Shown: positions 3,256 to 23,333 of the stretch, one piece after another
Layout: each line of letters begins with the position of its first letter
Numbering within the stretch: the stretch's first letter is position 1
Origin: Aedoeadaptatus ivorii
GTDB taxonomy: Bacteria; Bacillota; Clostridia; Tissierellales; Peptoniphilaceae
Length of the DNA stretch: 64,000 bases
Reading direction: 5' to 3'
NCBI RefSeq assembly: GCF_900638585.1
Contig: NZ_LR134523.1
Coordinates: forward strand, 372,001 to 436,000
Notes under the pieces: generated by a model
What the model saw: the letters and a program-made list of their open reading frames with translations, nothing else
Databases searched by the model: none
What the model was told of the DNA's origin: nothing
Position numbers and translations under genes: made by a program

Positions 3256-4164
3256 ATGCATGGGATTATAGACATCGGTTCTAACACCATTCGTCTTTCG
3301 GTGTTTCGCATCGAGGGAAAAAAAGTAATCAATTTGTTCAACGAGAAGCGGACGGTCGGGATCGCCGGCTATCGAAAAGACGGGAAGTTGACCCAAGAGG
3401 GCATCGACGTCTTGATCCAGACGCTGTCCTCTTTTGCCTATATCATCGACATATTCGGGGATATCCACTACGCCCACGCCATTGCGACGGCTTCCATCCG
3501 AAACATCTCCAATTCCGACGAAGTGATTCGCGCCGTGAAAAAGAAGGTGGGGATGGATATCGAAGTGCTGAGCGGGGAAGAGGAAGCTTATCTCGCCTTT
3601 GTCGGGGCGGGATCGTCTTTGGATGCGGTCGACGACGGCGTGCTCACAGACATCGGCGGCGGCTCTTCGGAGATCGTCCTGTTTCGCGATCGAGAGATCG
3701 TGGACTCGGCGTCTTTGGACATCGGTTCCTTATCCGCCTTTAAGGAATACGTGGCGGGGCTCTTCATGCAGCCCTGCGAGCGCAAGGCGCTGGATCGGCG
3801 CCTGAAGTTTTTGCTCCACGCCCAGGGCGTCGATCGCGAAGACTTCCCCGTCCTCTGTGCCGTCGGCGGCAGCGCTCGGGCGACGCTTTTGATGTATAAC
3901 GAGTTCTACGACGAACATCCCGATAATGACGAGATGGACGTCGACGACCTGAGGACGTTGATGAAACATTTGTTGGAAATGGACGATAAGGACAAGATGG
4001 ATATCATCCTCAAGACAAAGGCGGATCGCATACACACATTCTTGCCCGGCCTCTGTATTCTGTACCGAATCGCGAAATACTTCCACGTGGACCGCATCGC
4101 GGTTTCGCAGACGGGGATCAGAGAGGGCTATGTACTCAGTCGCATTGTAGGAGGCGAATCATGA
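3256..4164 (+). CDS. ppx: Exopolyphosphatase, Ppx/GppA family (short form)
   Basis: Hydrolyses terminal phosphates of polyphosphate and/or the pentaphosphate of pppGpp. 302 aa covers only the two ASKHA-fold lobes; the C-terminal HD-like domain of E. coli Ppx is absent, as in many short Firmicute and actinobacterial forms. The phosphate-binding loops are visible: DIGSNTIRLSVF at residues 6-17 and DIGGGSSEIVLF in the middle. The last 4 bases (ATGA) overlap the ppk1 start, so the synthesis and degradation enzymes are translationally coupled. The start ATG has GAGGTG upstream. Polyphosphatase rather than pppGpp hydrolase is inferred from pairing with ppk1. Confidence 0.9.
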   Translation: MHGIIDIGSNTIRLSVFRIEGKKVINLFNEKRTVGIAGYRKDGKLTQEGIDVLIQTLSSFAYIIDIFGDIHYAHAIATASIRNISNSDEVIRAVKKKVGMDIEVLSGEEEAYLAFVGAGSSLDAVDDGVLTDIGGGSSEIVLFRDREIVDSASLDIGSLSAFKEYVAGLFMQPCERKALDRRLKFLLHAQGVDREDFPVLCAVGGSARATLLMYNEFYDEHPDNDEMDVDDLRTLMKHLLEMDDKDKMDIILKTKADRIHTFLPGLCILYRIAKYFHVDRIAVSQTGIREGYVLSRIVGGES

Positions 4165-6353
4165 CCGATATTTCCTTTACACAAAACAGAGAGTTGTCAT
4201 GGCTCCGTTTTAACGAACGGGTTCTCGACGAAGCCCAAGACGTCAAGGTGCCGCTTTTGGAGCGGATCAAGTTTTTGTCCATCTTCGATTCCAATCTCGA
4301 CGAATTCTTTATGGTGCGGGTGGGGTCTTTGACCGACCTTTCTATGCTGCAAAAAAAGGTCGTCGACAACAAGTCTTTAATGGACCAGGACGAGCAGCTC
4401 GACGCGGTGATGGAGGCGACGAGTTCGCTCTACCAAAAGAAGGACCACGTCTATCAGGAACTGATGGATCGCTTCCGCTCCGAGGGCTATTATTTTGTAG
4501 AGAAGGAAGAACTGTCGGAACACGAAGACACGGTGCTCCAGGCGTATTTCGACAACTCGGTCAGCCCCTTCTTAAACTATCAGATCGTGGATATGACCCA
4601 CCCCTTCCCCCATATTCCCAATCTCGCCATCGTCATCCTCTACACCCTGCACGCCAAGGGGGTGGACGGGGATCGAAAGATCGGCATTATTCAGGTGCCC
4701 GACAAGGTCTCCCGATATATGCGCGTAGACAGCAATAAGTATATTATGCTAGAAGAGATTATCCGGGAATACGGAAAGGCGCTCTTCGAAAACTACGATG
4801 TGGAAGACTCATACATAATGAGTGTGACCCGAAATGCCGATATCGAGTGGGACGACGAGGACTACGAGCTGGAAGAAGACTACCGCTCGCATATGAAGAA
4901 GATGCTCAAAAAGCGCAAGCGTCTGGTGCCGGTGCGCCTGGAAGTCGACCGACTCCCCGACGAGGCGGTCGTGAAGCTGCTCTTGAAAAACCTCTCGCTT
5001 TCTCGCAACCGCCTCTTTGTCACCAAGAGCCCCATGCGGTTGGACTATCTTTTCGCCCTTTCCGGCGAGCTGGAAGAAGCCATGGGCCCGGAATATGTGG
5101 AACCGCCCTTCACCCCCCAACGCAGCCGCTATGTGCGGGATGACATGCCCATGATCGAACAGGTGGAGGCGCGCGATATTCTATTGTCCTACCCCTACGA
5201 GAGCATGGACCCCATCATCCGTCTCTTAAAAGAGGCGGCGGAAGACCCCACGGTGATGTCGATCAAGATCACCCTATACCGCATCGCCAAGGACTCCAAG
5301 ATCGCCGAGCAGTTGATCGCCGCGGCGGAAAACGGCAAGGACGTGTTGGTCTTGATGGAGCTCCGCGCCCGCTTCGACGAGGAGAACAATATCTTGTGGT
5401 CGTCGAATCTGGAAAAGGCGGGTTGCCGGGTGATCTACGGCTTTAACCACTTCAAATGCCACTCCAAGGTCCTCTTGATTACGCGCATGGTCGACGACAA
5501 GGCACAATACATCACGCAAGTCGCCACCGGAAACTACAACGAAAAGACCGCCAAGCTCTATACGGACTTTTCGCTCCTGACCGCCGATCAAAAGATCGGC
5601 CGCGACGCCAATCGCCTCTTCGACAATTTCCTGATCGGCGATATAGAAGGCGAATACGACGAACTCATGGTCAGCCCCAAATCCATGTCCGAAGGGCTCG
5701 AGCGGCTCTTCGACGAGCAGATCGCCTTGGCAAAATCCGGCGGCGAGGGCTATATTCGCCTCAAAATGAACTCGATCTCCGACCGCATTCTGATCGACAA
5801 GATCTCCGAGGCGTCCAATGCCGGCGTCAAGATCGATATGATGGTGCGCGGCATTACCTGTATCGTGCCCGGCGTGCCCGGCCGCACGGAAAATCTGTCG
5901 GTCTACTCGGTAGTGGGACGCTTTTTGGAGCACCACCGCGTCTACCAGTTCGGAAAGGGCGAGGACGCCAAGGTCTACATCTCCTCCGCCGACTTTATGA
6001 CGAGAAACATTCGAAAACGCGTGGAAGTCGCCTGCCCCATCTTGGATCCCGAGATCAAAACGCGGGTACTCGACTTTATGGACACGATGTTTGCCGACGA
6101 CGTAAAGATCCGCGAGCTCCTGCCCACCCGCCGCTATGCGCATGTGGTGAATCGCGACAATATCGTGGCGCAAGAGGCACTTATGAAAGAGGCGTTGGAA
6201 CACGCCCCCGAGGATACGCCCGTGAAGACCGCGCCCCGGCGATTTGCCGAACCCCTGCCTTCTCAGGGCAGAGAAGAACCCGGTGCACAGAAAGAAGAAA
6301 AAGAAGGCTTCTTCGCCCGTCTGATTCGCAAATTGTTCGGGCGATCCCGGTAA
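4161..6353 (+). CDS. ppk1: Polyphosphate kinase 1
   Basis: Polymerises the ATP gamma-phosphate into polyphosphate, reversibly, through a phosphohistidine. 730 aa, full length, with the N-terminal helical domain (starts TDISFTQNRELSWLRFNERV, the family hallmark), head domain and two PLD-like catalytic domains. The autophosphorylated His is most likely His434 in FKCHSK. The second catalytic His lies in LEHHRVYQFG. A charged tail of about 55 residues follows the conserved core. It overlaps ppx by 4 bases and is followed directly by a strong terminator, so ppx-ppk1 look like a two-gene operon. Confidence 0.97.
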   Translation: MTDISFTQNRELSWLRFNERVLDEAQDVKVPLLERIKFLSIFDSNLDEFFMVRVGSLTDLSMLQKKVVDNKSLMDQDEQLDAVMEATSSLYQKKDHVYQELMDRFRSEGYYFVEKEELSEHEDTVLQAYFDNSVSPFLNYQIVDMTHPFPHIPNLAIVILYTLHAKGVDGDRKIGIIQVPDKVSRYMRVDSNKYIMLEEIIREYGKALFENYDVEDSYIMSVTRNADIEWDDEDYELEEDYRSHMKKMLKKRKRLVPVRLEVDRLPDEAVVKLLLKNLSLSRNRLFVTKSPMRLDYLFALSGELEEAMGPEYVEPPFTPQRSRYVRDDMPMIEQVEARDILLSYPYESMDPIIRLLKEAAEDPTVMSIKITLYRIAKDSKIAEQLIAAAENGKDVLVLMELRARFDEENNILWSSNLEKAGCRVIYGFNHFKCHSKVLLITRMVDDKAQYITQVATGNYNEKTAKLYTDFSLLTADQKIGRDANRLFDNFLIGDIEGEYDELMVSPKSMSEGLERLFDEQIALAKSGGEGYIRLKMNSISDRILIDKISEASNAGVKIDMMVRGITCIVPGVPGRTENLSVYSVVGRFLEHHRVYQFGKGEDAKVYISSADFMTRNIRKRVEVACPILDPEIKTRVLDFMDTMFADDVKIRELLPTRRYAHVVNRDNIVAQEALMKEALEHAPEDTPVKTAPRRFAEPLPSQGREEPGAQKEEKEGFFARLIRKLFGRSR

Positions 6354-6360
6354 ACGAGGA

Positions 6361-6385
6361 GAAGACCTGCGGGTCTTCTTTTTTT
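6361..6385 (+). terminator. Rho-independent terminator after ppk1
   Basis: Stem GAAGACC / GGTCTTC (6361-6378) with a 4-base loop, then a T run (6379-6385). Starts 7 bases after the ppk1 stop. Confidence 0.9.
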
Positions 6386-6397
6386 ATTCGGAAACTT

Positions 6398-6406
6398 TGA
6401 TATAAT
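6398..6406 (+). promoter_or_regulatory. Extended -10 promoter for the Lys-tail methyltransferase operon
   Basis: TGATATAAT, an extended -10 with perfect TATAAT at 6401-6406, lies between the ppk1 terminator and the ATG at 6435. The -35 position is T-rich and poor, which fits an extended -10 promoter. Confidence 0.7.
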
Positions 6407-6434
6407 GAAAAAATAAATAAGGAGAAGATGCAAT

Positions 6435-7457
6435 ATGCCGAAAGATAAAAAGAAAAAATTAAAAGCGAAAGACGACAAGCGCGCACAAAAAGCGCAGAAC
6501 GAGAAGAAAAAGAAGGAGGAGAGTAAGGCGGGGGAGAAAAAGACAAAAACAAAAAAGAAAAATAAGGCCAAAGTCGAGCGACAAAAAGCGGCGGACAAAG
6601 CTGCCAAAAAGAAGAGCGCCAAAAAGAAGCGATCGAAGGAAGAGGCGAAGGCAAAGAAAGTGAAGCTGTCTTCAAAGGCGAAAAAAGCGAAGACCGCGCC
6701 TGAAAACAAGAAGAAGCCGTCGAAGGCAAAAGCGAAGAAGACAAAGACGAAGTCGAAATCGAAAAAAGCCAAGTCTGCAATGGTAAAAGCGAAAAAGAAG
6801 CCGTCGAAGGAAAAGAAGGAGAAAGCACAATCCGCACCCGTAAAAGAAGAAGAGAAAACGCCGGCGCATAAGGAGGACGAAGGGGCGGAAAACGACGCGG
6901 CGCATGCGGCCGCCCCGGCGGTCGAAGACAGCCCCACAAAAGTGGTGCCGCGCGTACAAGCGGCGACGAGTGCGGCAAAGCCCCTACAAGCGCCCGCCGG
7001 CGTATCGGCGGTGCTGCGCCGGGTGATCGAAACGCCCCTGGGCCGCCTCTCCCTAAAGGCGGAAGGGGAGGCGCTTACGGAGATCCTATTTACCGAAGAG
7101 GACCTCGGCGGCGACGATGCCCCCCTCTTGCAAGAGGCGGAGCGCCAACTCGCCGAGTACTTTGTCGGCGAGCGCAAGTCCTTCGAGCTGCCCCTCGCCC
7201 TGCGGGGCACGGAATTTCAGCGGGCGGTCTACGATGCGCTCCTCGCGATTCCCTACGGCGAAGTGAAGAGCTACCAGGAAGTGGCCGTCGCCATCGGCAG
7301 AGACCGCGCCTACCGCGCCGTGGGCGGCGCCGTGGGGAAAAACCCGCTTACGGTGGTGGTGCCTTGCCACCGCGTGGTCCGCAAAGACGGATCCGCCGGC
7401 GGCTACAGCGGCGGTGCGCATAGAAAAGAGGCGCTCTTGCGCCTGGAAGGCCGCTAA
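6435..7457 (+). CDS. ogt: Lysine-rich histone-H1-like tail fused to O6-alkylguanine-DNA methyltransferase
   Basis: The C-terminal half (about residues 190-340) is a complete methylated-DNA-protein-cysteine methyltransferase. It has an N-terminal Ogt domain (about 195-250), then the DNA-binding wing with RAVGGAVGKNP and the active-site PCHRVV motif, whose Cys accepts the alkyl group. Residues 1-140 are low-complexity and extremely basic, made of K, A, E, S and T in KKA/AKK units like histone H1 or chlamydial Hc1. An acidic, Ala/Pro-rich spacer (about 141-190) follows. Tail and enzyme share one open frame. AAGGAG sits 10 bases before the ATG, which places translation initiation ahead of the tail; I see no better internal start before the enzyme. 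Ordinary Ogt/AdaB proteins are 150-180 aa. I infer a non-specific DNA tether. The antiporter gene follows 5 bases after the stop. Confidence 0.9.
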   Translation: MPKDKKKKLKAKDDKRAQKAQNEKKKKEESKAGEKKTKTKKKNKAKVERQKAADKAAKKKSAKKKRSKEEAKAKKVKLSSKAKKAKTAPENKKKPSKAKAKKTKTKSKSKKAKSAMVKAKKKPSKEKKEKAQSAPVKEEEKTPAHKEDEGAENDAAHAAAPAVEDSPTKVVPRVQAATSAAKPLQAPAGVSAVLRRVIETPLGRLSLKAEGEALTEILFTEEDLGGDDAPLLQEAERQLAEYFVGERKSFELPLALRGTEFQRAVYDALLAIPYGEVKSYQEVAVAIGRDRAYRAVGGAVGKNPLTVVVPCHRVVRKDGSAGGYSGGAHRKEALLRLEGR

Positions 7458-7462
7458 AAAGC

Positions 7463-9076
7463 GTGAATGCGATTCTACTATTCGTCTCGACGATCTTTAT
7501 CGCGGCGCTCTTTGCGATCAAGTTTTCCCATCGCTACGGCATCCCCTCGCTCTTTTTGTTCTTTCTATTGGGGATCGGTGCCAATGCCCTGGGCGTCGAC
7601 TTCGAAAAATTCGGATTTATGGAGCACTACGCCGGCTTTGCGCTCTTTGTAATCATGTTCTACGGGGGCTACGGCACCAATCTCGAGATGGGGCTTCCGG
7701 TCCTTCGGCCCGCCGTGGCGCTCAGTTCCCTGGGCGTGGTGATTACCGCCTTATTGACGGGGTTGTTCGCGCACTATGTGCTGGACTTTTCCCTCGTAGA
7801 GGGTATGCTCTTCGGATCGGTTATCGGCTCCACCGACTACGCCTCGGTTTCCTCGGTGCTCCAGAGCAAGAATTTGAACCTGAAGTACCGCTCGGCGCCG
7901 CTTTTGGAATTGGAGAGCGGCTCCAATGACCCCACCGCGTATACCATGACGCTGATCTTTTTGGGGTTGTTGACGGGCAGTGCCGTCTCGGTGCCGCTAT
8001 TGTTGTTGAAGCAGCTCGCCTTTGCGCTCCTTGTGGGCTACGGTATGGCGAAGCTCTTTTTTCTCATTCACGACCGCGTCAATTTTACCAAAGAAGGTCT
8101 CTTTACCGTCTTCGTCTTTGCCATGGCCCTCGCCGCCTTTTCCCTCTGCGGACTGGCGGACGGAAACGGCTATCTCGCCGCCTACCTCTTCGGGGTACTG
8201 ATCGGCAATCGGGATTATTCCGGCAAGCGCGAGATGGTCTTTTTCTTCGACGGCCTGACGGAGATCATGCAGATCAGCCTGTTCTTTCTACTGGGATTTC
8301 TTTCCGATCCGCACGCCCTGTGGACGTGGTTTCCCACGGCGCTTGCGGTAATGCTGTTTTTGCTCCTTGTGGCGCGTCCCGTAGCTGTCTTTTTGTTGAT
8401 GCGATTTTTCGGCGGCACCTTTCGCCAAAATCTCCTACTCTCGTGGGCGGGCCTTCGCGGGGCGGCGGCGATCGTATTCGCCATTATGGTCGTAAACAGC
8501 GGCGCCCGATTGGAATCGGACATCTTTCATGCGGCCCTCGGCGTCTGCCTGTTAAGCAGCCTATTGCAGGGGTCTCTTCTCGCCAAAATCGCCATCAAAC
8601 TCGATATGATCGACCCCGACGATACGGTCTTAAAGACATTTAACTACTATCAGGACCGCAGCGATGTGGGCTTTTTGGAGACTCGCGTCAGGGACGATGA
8701 GATCATCGGCATGAAGGTGAAAGATTTGAACCTCGCCTTCGACTTTATCGTCGCTAAAATCGAGCGCGGCGGAAAGACCATCGTGCCCCACGGCGACACC
8801 GTGCTTCAGGCGGGGGATCTGGTCGTGGTGGGCGGAAAAAGCCATTTCGACACCGTCGGCGGCTCGCTGGAAGAATTTACGATTCGAAGCGAGCACCCCT
8901 GGGCCAATCGGCGGATTCGGGATTTGCACCTTTCGCCCAACGAACTCATCCTAATCGTACAGCGCAATCACAATATCCTCGTGCCGTCGGGGGATACCAT
9001 TGTATGCCCGGGGGACAAGGTGCTGTTTACCGACAGCGAAGAGCCGCTATTTGCGGAGAAAGACGCCGAATTGTAA
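7463..9076 (+). CDS. CPA1-family cation/proton antiporter, NhaP2-like, with RCK_C domains
   Basis: Membrane K+(Na+)/H+ exchanger. 537 aa. Residues 1-380 hold about 12 hydrophobic segments, with conserved acidic patches such as FGSVIGSTDYASV and ELESGSNDPTAY typical of CPA1 antiporters. Two C-terminal TrkA_C/RCK_C regulatory domains follow (about 400-460 and 470-535), recognised by VLQAGDLVVVGG and IVCPGDKVLFTD. The start is GTG at 7463, 5 bases after the methyltransferase stop, with only a weak upstream AAGG, so translation is probably coupled. K+ versus Na+ preference cannot be read from sequence. No clear terminator follows. Confidence 0.92.
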   Translation: MNAILLFVSTIFIAALFAIKFSHRYGIPSLFLFFLLGIGANALGVDFEKFGFMEHYAGFALFVIMFYGGYGTNLEMGLPVLRPAVALSSLGVVITALLTGLFAHYVLDFSLVEGMLFGSVIGSTDYASVSSVLQSKNLNLKYRSAPLLELESGSNDPTAYTMTLIFLGLLTGSAVSVPLLLLKQLAFALLVGYGMAKLFFLIHDRVNFTKEGLFTVFVFAMALAAFSLCGLADGNGYLAAYLFGVLIGNRDYSGKREMVFFFDGLTEIMQISLFFLLGFLSDPHALWTWFPTALAVMLFLLLVARPVAVFLLMRFFGGTFRQNLLLSWAGLRGAAAIVFAIMVVNSGARLESDIFHAALGVCLLSSLLQGSLLAKIAIKLDMIDPDDTVLKTFNYYQDRSDVGFLETRVRDDEIIGMKVKDLNLAFDFIVAKIERGGKTIVPHGDTVLQAGDLVVVGGKSHFDTVGGSLEEFTIRSEHPWANRRIRDLHLSPNELILIVQRNHNILVPSGDTIVCPGDKVLFTDSEEPLFAEKDAEL

Positions 9077-9183: not shown

Positions 9184-9259
9184 GCTATCGTAGCTCAGTC
9201 GGTAGAGCACTACATTGGTAATGTAGAGGTCGCAGGTTCAAATCCCGTCGATAGCTCCA
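9184..9259 (+). tRNA. tRNA-Thr (anticodon GGT)
   Basis: 76-nt cloverleaf with encoded CCA. Acceptor GCTATCG/CGATAGC is perfect, D-arm GCTC/GAGC, anticodon arm CTACA/TGTAG with loop TTGGTAA (anticodon GGT). T-arm is GCAGG/CCCGT, with one A-C mismatch at its third pair. Reads Thr codons ACC/ACU. Confidence 0.97.
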
Positions 9260-17514: not shown

Positions 17515-17864
17515 GGGGACGAAATGGCTTCGACGGGGATTCGGAAGCCGGAGTAGCAAGCCGTTGATGAGTCAGGCAACGTTAAAATGGCTCAAAACTT
17601 TAAATGCTAACGACAACAACGTAGCACTGGCAGCGTAAACACGCTACCCACGGAACCGAGAGGTCCACGGCTCGGGGAAGTGTCAATTCAGTGGAGAAAC
17701 GCGCTCGGTCAAGCTTTGCCCCGAGAACGGAATCTATGAAGCTACCTTATAGACGAGTTTTGTTTTTCCCTCGTGTATAGGGGAAATTTCAGGAAAAACT
17801 GAGCTTGGAGAAACTCCGGTGGAAGGATTTTCGGACGCGGGTTCGACCCCCGCCGTCTCCACCA
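17515..17864 (+). ncRNA. ssrA: tmRNA (one-piece)
   Basis: Rescues stalled ribosomes and tags nascent chains. The 5' end GGGGACGAAATGGCTTCGAC pairs with CGTCTCC before the 3' ACCA to form the tRNA-like acceptor, and a T-arm (GCGGG TTCGACC CCCGC) is visible. The resume codon is GCT at 17606 and the stop is TAA at 17636. The encoded tag is ANDNNVALAA, preceded by the charged Ala, with the classic hydrophobic ALAA end recognised by ClpXP. 350 nt. Confidence 0.97.
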
Positions 17865-23257: not shown

Positions 23258-23333
23258 GGAGAGTTAGCTCAGTTGGTAGAGCGCTACGTTGACATCGTAG
23301 AGGTCGCTGGTTCAAGCCCAGTACTGTCCACCA
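23258..23333 (+). tRNA. tRNA-Val (anticodon GAC) at the left end of an integrated element
   Basis: 76-nt cloverleaf with encoded CCA. D-arm GCTC/GAGC, anticodon arm CTACG/CGTAG with loop TTGACAT (anticodon GAC at 23291-23293), T-arm GCTGG/CCAGT. Acceptor GGAGAGT/ACTGTCC has a G-G mismatch at pair 4-69. The last 15 bases recur at 25569-25583. Confidence 0.93.
23319..23333 (+). repeat. Left att-like repeat (tRNA-Val 3' end)
   Basis: CAGTACTGTCCACCA, the 3' end of the tRNA, is repeated identically and in the same orientation at 25569-25583. Site-specific integrases commonly use tRNA 3' ends as att sites. Confidence 0.7.

Follow-up and report, generated by a model that had tools for sequence, protein, structure and literature searches.

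A lysine-rich N-terminal tail joined to Ogt in a single open reading frame of Aedoeadaptatus ivorii

The ogt locus and its fused reading frame

In this work, a window of 64,000 nucleotides (the whole stretch of DNA that was analyzed, positions 372,001 to 436,000 of contig NZ_LR134523.1) was taken from the genome of A. ivorii, which is a single contig of 1,587,771 bases. The features at and around ogt are given below in window positions.

3256..4164 (+): exopolyphosphatase-type gene of the Ppx/GppA family (Pfam PF02541, E 2e-42)
4161..6353 (+): polyphosphate kinase, ppk1 type (four PP_kinase Pfam domains)
6356..6383 (+): hairpin and T run after ppk, terminator-like (-16.4 kcal/mol, z -2.89; kept in five genus relatives)
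6398..6406 (+): TGATATAAT, extended -10-like element (unchanged across the window and the five genus relatives aligned)
6419..6424 (+): AAGGAG, Shine-Dalgarno-like (10 nt to the ATG at 6435, 3 nt to the ATG at 6428)
6428..6448 (+): 6-codon ORF (MQYAER) overlapping the tail start (read from the sequence; its ATG is maybe the ancestral start)
6435..6854 (+): lysine-rich tail, residues 1-140 (by composition; net charge +47)
6855..7001 (+): Ala/Pro-rich linker, residues 141-189 (by composition; pLDDT below 50 over residues 88-190)
7002..7457 (+): Ogt, methylated-DNA-protein-cysteine methyltransferase, with PCHRVV and Cys311 at 7365-7367 (PF02870, PF01035, TIGR00589, and solved relatives)
7463..9076 (+): potassium/proton antiporter-type gene downstream of ogt (NF003716, 511.6 bits, cut-off 355)

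The ppx-type gene scores under the cut-off of the NCBIfam model exo_poly_only (205 vs 307 bits). Elsewhere in the window, two tRNA genes (9184-9256 and 23258-23330) and a tmRNA gene (17515-17864) were observed.

The lysine-rich tail and a complete Ogt, with its catalytic residues present, are joined in a single frame of 340 codons at 6435-7457 on the plus strand. The coordinates, strand, length (340 aa), and PCHRVV motif given in the original prediction were all exact. The whole predicted protein has a mass of 37.0 kDa and a pI of about 10.1. The tail and linker run for 190 codons without a stop, and the other two plus frames contain 4 and 5 stops. However, two minus frames across the same stretch are likewise free of stops, because lysine-rich (AAR) DNA leaves few stops on the opposite strand, so the openness of the frame is weak evidence by itself. 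The control region, conserved ahead of the tail in the genus relatives, is stronger evidence for the frame. The minus-strand ORFs opposite the tail (6181-6978, 265 codons, and 6263-7210, 315 codons) are probably a by-product of DNA rich in lysine codons and a hazard to gene callers. Judged from the sequence, the fusion of Ogt with a basic, low-complexity tail is real, unusual, and well delimited.

In the Ogt part, Pfam Methyltransf_1N (PF02870) spans residues 194-256 (35.6 bits, cut-off 21) and DNA_binding_1 (PF01035) spans residues 260-339 (112.9 bits, cut-off 27), while NCBIfam TIGR00589 reaches 110.1 bits (cut-off 46.4). The PCHRVV motif and residues Y280, R294, N303, C311, H312, and E338 are invariant between this Ogt and those of four genus relatives. 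The catalytic Tyr, Arg, Asn, His, and Glu positions were assigned from what we take to be the corresponding sites of human MGMT, and the Ogt appears to be catalytically complete. A search of solved structures gave 46 distinct matching sequences, the best of which covers residues 195-338. Two of the 46 also match part of the tail, reaching residues 11 and 32; these are engineered fusions of NuMA1 and CENP-C with an alkyltransferase tag, and their tail matches were taken as composition.

The tail (residues 1-140) consists of 43.6% K, 15.7% A, 9.3% E, 7.9% S, and 3.6% P, with 64 K+R vs 17 D+E. Its proposed length of about 140 residues was confirmed, with the refinement that the lysine tract is followed by a linker of about 50 residues rich in Ala and Pro (28% Ala and 12% Pro over residues 141-190). 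The description of the tail as H1-like holds for its Lys/Ala-rich composition but not for its domains: residues 1-189 gave zero family matches in Pfam and NCBIfam at E up to 10, so no H1 domain, and no globular H1/H5 winged helix, was found in them. AlphaFold2, run with five sequences, predicted one helix at residues 3-86 (block-mean pLDDT 77-94), which should be read cautiously because it rests on one charged sequence, no other covering the tail. In the same model (pTM 0.36), residues 88-190 have a pLDDT under 50, and the block means of the alkyltransferase part are 51-91. KPAA repeats are absent from the tail. Stretches of the PASK type (20 residues with at least 75% D/E/S/K, including a lysine) occur at six positions of the tail; the accessible part of the source reports such proteins as rare in the bacteria surveyed (PMC12345225).

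At the codon level, the lysines of the tail are mixed (AAA 28, AAG 33), and just two tandem repeats were detected, both weak (scores 41 and 33). The longest A run is 6, vs a mean of 9.4 in 5000 synonymous shuffles (P 0.027), and the A6 count is also lower than in the shuffles (P 0.049), both values being uncorrected for the five measures used; the other three measures were ordinary (P 0.11, 0.28, and 0.40). The GC3 of the tail is 0.59 vs 0.72-0.80 in ppx, ppk, the ogt part, and the antiporter gene. The mixed lysine codons, few repeats, and short A runs are weak signs, from one genome, of selection on the tail, and the three ordinary measures and the low GC3 were counted against it.

Control region and genus relatives

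The hairpin after ppk, which is absent from the list of the consensus scan, and TGATATAAT are both conserved and both lie upstream of the tail in the alignment of the window with five genus relatives (G004 was omitted for its insert). The original prediction had placed the promoter, ribosome-binding site, and start in front of the tail. The extended -10 element (TGATATAAT) and AAGGAG do lie there, but no -35 element was recognized, and the consensus scan gave no sigma-70 site with both hexamers ahead of the tail. The ATG at 6428 appears to match the start position of the relatives (GGAG plus 4 nt in G001 and G005). Since it seems to be placed like their start codons, translation may ancestrally have begun there, with the tail ORF possibly relying on the second ATG (6435), perhaps via coupling. 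Alternatively, 6428 is possibly the start of a leader ORF. The mini-ORF at 6428 is a caveat for the tailed product rather than its refutation. The next in-frame ATG after 6435 is at residue 116. As for an internal start near residue 180, which the original prediction had set against the fusion, the GTGs at residues 170, 171, 193, and 197 were read as having no Shine-Dalgarno-like sequence ahead of them.

The genus set comprised eight genomes, namely the window's own and seven others. The order ppx-ppk-ogt-antiporter is kept in six of the seven relatives (ppx being recognized there by its N-terminal sequence), and ogt is tail-less in all six, with frames of 162-203 codons in total. Identity to these six is 70-72% for Ppk and 69-71% for the antiporter. 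The Ogt of some of the relatives starts with lysines (MKKKEQ, MKKQEK). The gap between ppk and ogt is 95-121 bases in four relatives, 4 in G005 (at its outermost start), and 3,274 in G004. The 3.3-kb insert of G004 (L122 reverse complement, 3264-6391) carries one gene resembling an IS200-type transposase and two others resembling the MBOAT/AlgI and DltD types. The seventh relative, G006 (95% complete), gave no ppk or ogt match and only weak, partial antiporter matches. It is the smallest genome of the genus (1.4 Mb) and may have lost the ppk/ogt/antiporter block together.

Distribution and origin of the tail

With the tail as a query, a search of the source genome at E up to 10 matched only the tail itself. 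The pattern AARAARAARAAR has 50 sites in the genome vs 59 for the reversed pattern used as a control, so it is not in excess. The surroundings of all 50 sites were read (48 loci, 143 kb including overlaps), and the most lysines per 50 residues were 25 in the tail, followed by 17, 14, and 13. The frame with 17 lies on the minus strand and overlaps, out of frame, a ribosomal L25-type gene, and that with 14 is another frame of the tail DNA. Thus, no second copy of the tail was found, the pattern scan covering proteins with four consecutive lysines. HU has one match per genome, with a frame of 95 codons in the source genome.

The same fusion was also sought in relatives, as the original prediction had proposed, and no lysine-rich extension of Ogt was found in the family or, for the order and the phylum sample, among the long frames in the list. 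In the family, 120/130 genomes have Ogt matches, and all ten other frames of at least 205 codons have no lysine-rich upstream part (at most 12 lysines per 50 residues). Ezakiella coagulans belongs to this family, since named locus L099 and family genome G044 share their match coordinates; the species is assigned to Peptoniphilaceae in one abstract (PMC9302094) and to Tissierellia incertae sedis at NCBI. Ogt matches occur in 230/249 genomes of the order, where all eleven frames above 250 codons outside the family, among the matches listed, are not lysine-rich. In the phylum sample (matches in 359/398 genomes), only the window's own match, among those listed, aligns ahead of query residue 165, and neither the ten listed frames above 250 codons nor seven others of 218-247 codons are lysine-rich. 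Some fetched frames were shorter than listed (G385, 214 vs 283 codons; G460, 195 vs 707; G148, G149, G150, and G140, 313-392 vs 374-403). Among the best 80 of 119 named relatives, an Ogt frame was present at 79 loci, and the highest lysine share in upstream stretches longer than 40 residues was 16%. No match in plasmids (399 matching records) or phages (24) covers more than 80% of the query. A rare tailed Ogt elsewhere could be missed among unlisted matches or short frames. A literature search, with most subscription journals outside its scope, turned up no description of a bacterial Ogt with a lysine tail among the papers listed.

Other extensions of Ogt were encountered along the way. Two genera elsewhere in the family (G058 and G067) have Ogt fused behind a domain of type I 3-dehydroquinase (AroD), an enzyme of the shikimate pathway (L135:195-1358 and L136:369-1496). 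The domain ahead of Ogt at L138, L140, L141, L224, L235, and L213, and also at L073, L078, and L094, resembles an HhH-GPD (AlkA-like) glycosylase; several families are represented among these loci. At L225-L229, Ogt is N-terminal in frames of 313-392 codons bearing a C-terminal extension.

The tail could also have been a neighboring gene, and its presence as a separate gene in relatives was likewise raised in the original prediction. No frame of at least 60 codons with over 20% lysine was found in the fetched stretches of the six ogt-bearing relatives. Since no lysine-rich frame lies beside ogt in these six, or in the G004 insert, a separate-gene origin was ruled out. The hairpin and TGATATAAT are conserved, the tail lies downstream of both, and the relatives are tail-less; by this comparison, the tail is an insertion specific to this lineage, close to the start codon and set between a pre-existing promoter and a pre-existing enzyme, and not a captured neighboring gene.

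The tail was seen in one genome only. The Ogt itself has just 39-44% identity to that of genus relatives, against 70-72% for Ppk, so a foreign origin was suspected. In a quick tree (110 rows; L085 left out), this Ogt fell outside the well-supported genus clade, its own position being unsupported. When it was constrained to group with the genus, the likelihood rose (p-AU 0.866), and the test therefore does not reject descent within the genus. Fast divergence within the genus is the simpler reading.

Possible function and comparison with known systems

H1 tails are polycationic and bind DNA non-specifically, and a one-use repair protein relies on the quick finding of rare lesions. We hypothesize, with a probability of roughly 55%, that the N-terminal polycation serves as a non-specific polyanion anchor, mainly for DNA, on a complete Ogt and speeds up lesion finding. 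In the lineage of this species, as sampled, Ogt would have gained a polycationic N-terminal tail of about 190 residues, 140 of them lysine-rich and followed by a flexible linker. The gene's own promoter would drive a single product that comprises both tail and Ogt. Its tail would then bind polyanions without sequence specificity, chiefly the chromosomal DNA, and such tethering would hold the single-use repair enzyme at or close to its substrate, so that lesions would be found faster. The anchor reading is supported by the tail charge of +47, the pI of about 10.1, the intact alkyltransferase domains, and the precedent of AGT-2, as well as by the tail-less relatives, the conserved control region, the GTGs without a Shine-Dalgarno sequence, and the short A runs. 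The single genome, the three ordinary shuffle measures, the GC3 of 0.59, and the better-spaced ATG at 6428 were counted against it. We infer DNA tethering or a nucleoid role for the tail, and polyphosphate, which was absent from the original interpretation, also fits as a second polyanion.

The occurrence of the tail in one species only, without a homologue elsewhere in its own genome, together with its low GC3 and the lysine starts already present in some genus relatives (MKKKEQ, MKKQEK), would agree with a neutral or slightly harmful low-complexity expansion, tolerated and functionless. We consider it unlikely, as the 190 codons are open, the lysine codons are mixed (AAA/AAG 28/33), the two repeats are weak (41 and 33), and the A runs are shorter than in the shuffles. 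It is very doubtful that the tail is missing from the cellular Ogt, either because translation starts internally around residue 190 or because the 6428 mini-ORF captures the ribosomes. The GTGs at residues 193 and 197 are close to the protein starts of the relatives and the ATG at 6428 does overlap, but these GTGs have no Shine-Dalgarno-like sequence, no stop separates the tail from Ogt, and about 600 bases lie between these GTGs and the conserved -10 element upstream.

If polyphosphate were instead the main target of the tail, the product of Ppk would hold Ogt under stress or shuttle it to and from the nucleoid. The gene order ppx-ppk-ogt, the six PASK-type stretches (PMC12345225), and, in the available text of another study, the presence of the H1-like AlgP at polyphosphate granules (PMC9239181) are consistent with such a role. 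However, six tail-less relatives share the gene order, and ogt comes with a conserved -10 element of its own and a hairpin upstream. The neighborhood therefore suggests a polyphosphate link but does not prove it, and we hold polyphosphate as the main target to be rather improbable. Both polyanions could also be used in turn, with Ogt on the nucleoid in growth and on polyphosphate in stress, and Ppk and Ppx setting its location. Such a switchable anchor seems distinctly improbable; if true, it would mean a direct physical link from polyphosphate metabolism to alkylation repair. For the non-specific anchor on DNA, the six relatives whose ogt has no tail at this locus offer natural controls for asking whether non-specific tethering helps or hinders the lesion search.

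In comparison with known systems, both domains and PCHRVV are common to the bacterial Ogt/MGMT family (PF02870 + PF01035, TIGR00589), and the difference here is the roughly 190 extra residues of lysine-rich tail and linker at the N-terminus. The AGT-2 of C. elegans likewise combines an alkyltransferase with a long, basic extension that is H1-like in composition (PMC6499797). In the accessible text of the sources, this extension is basic, Pro-rich, and C-terminal, with its function unestablished (PMC6499797, PMC10779285), and in vitro histone H1 was found to stimulate the AGT reaction (PMC6499797). According to the same text, AGT-2 is missing the usual N-terminal AGT domain, whereas in the Ogt described here the tail is N-terminal and PF02870 is present. 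It suggests that histone-like tails on alkyltransferases arose independently in a bacterium and a nematode. AlgP/PhaF of Pseudomonas also have a long Lys/Ala-rich low-complexity region, with a charge of +55 for the AlgP protein against +47 for the tail; in AlgP, as far as the available text describes it, C-terminal KPAA repeats are placed on a helical domain (PMC9239181), whereas here there is no KPAA and the partner is an enzyme. The archaeal AGT-EndoV, in the accessible part of its description (PMC10779285), and the dehydroquinase-Ogt fusions likewise carry an added module, but theirs is folded, while in this Ogt it is a low-complexity polycation.
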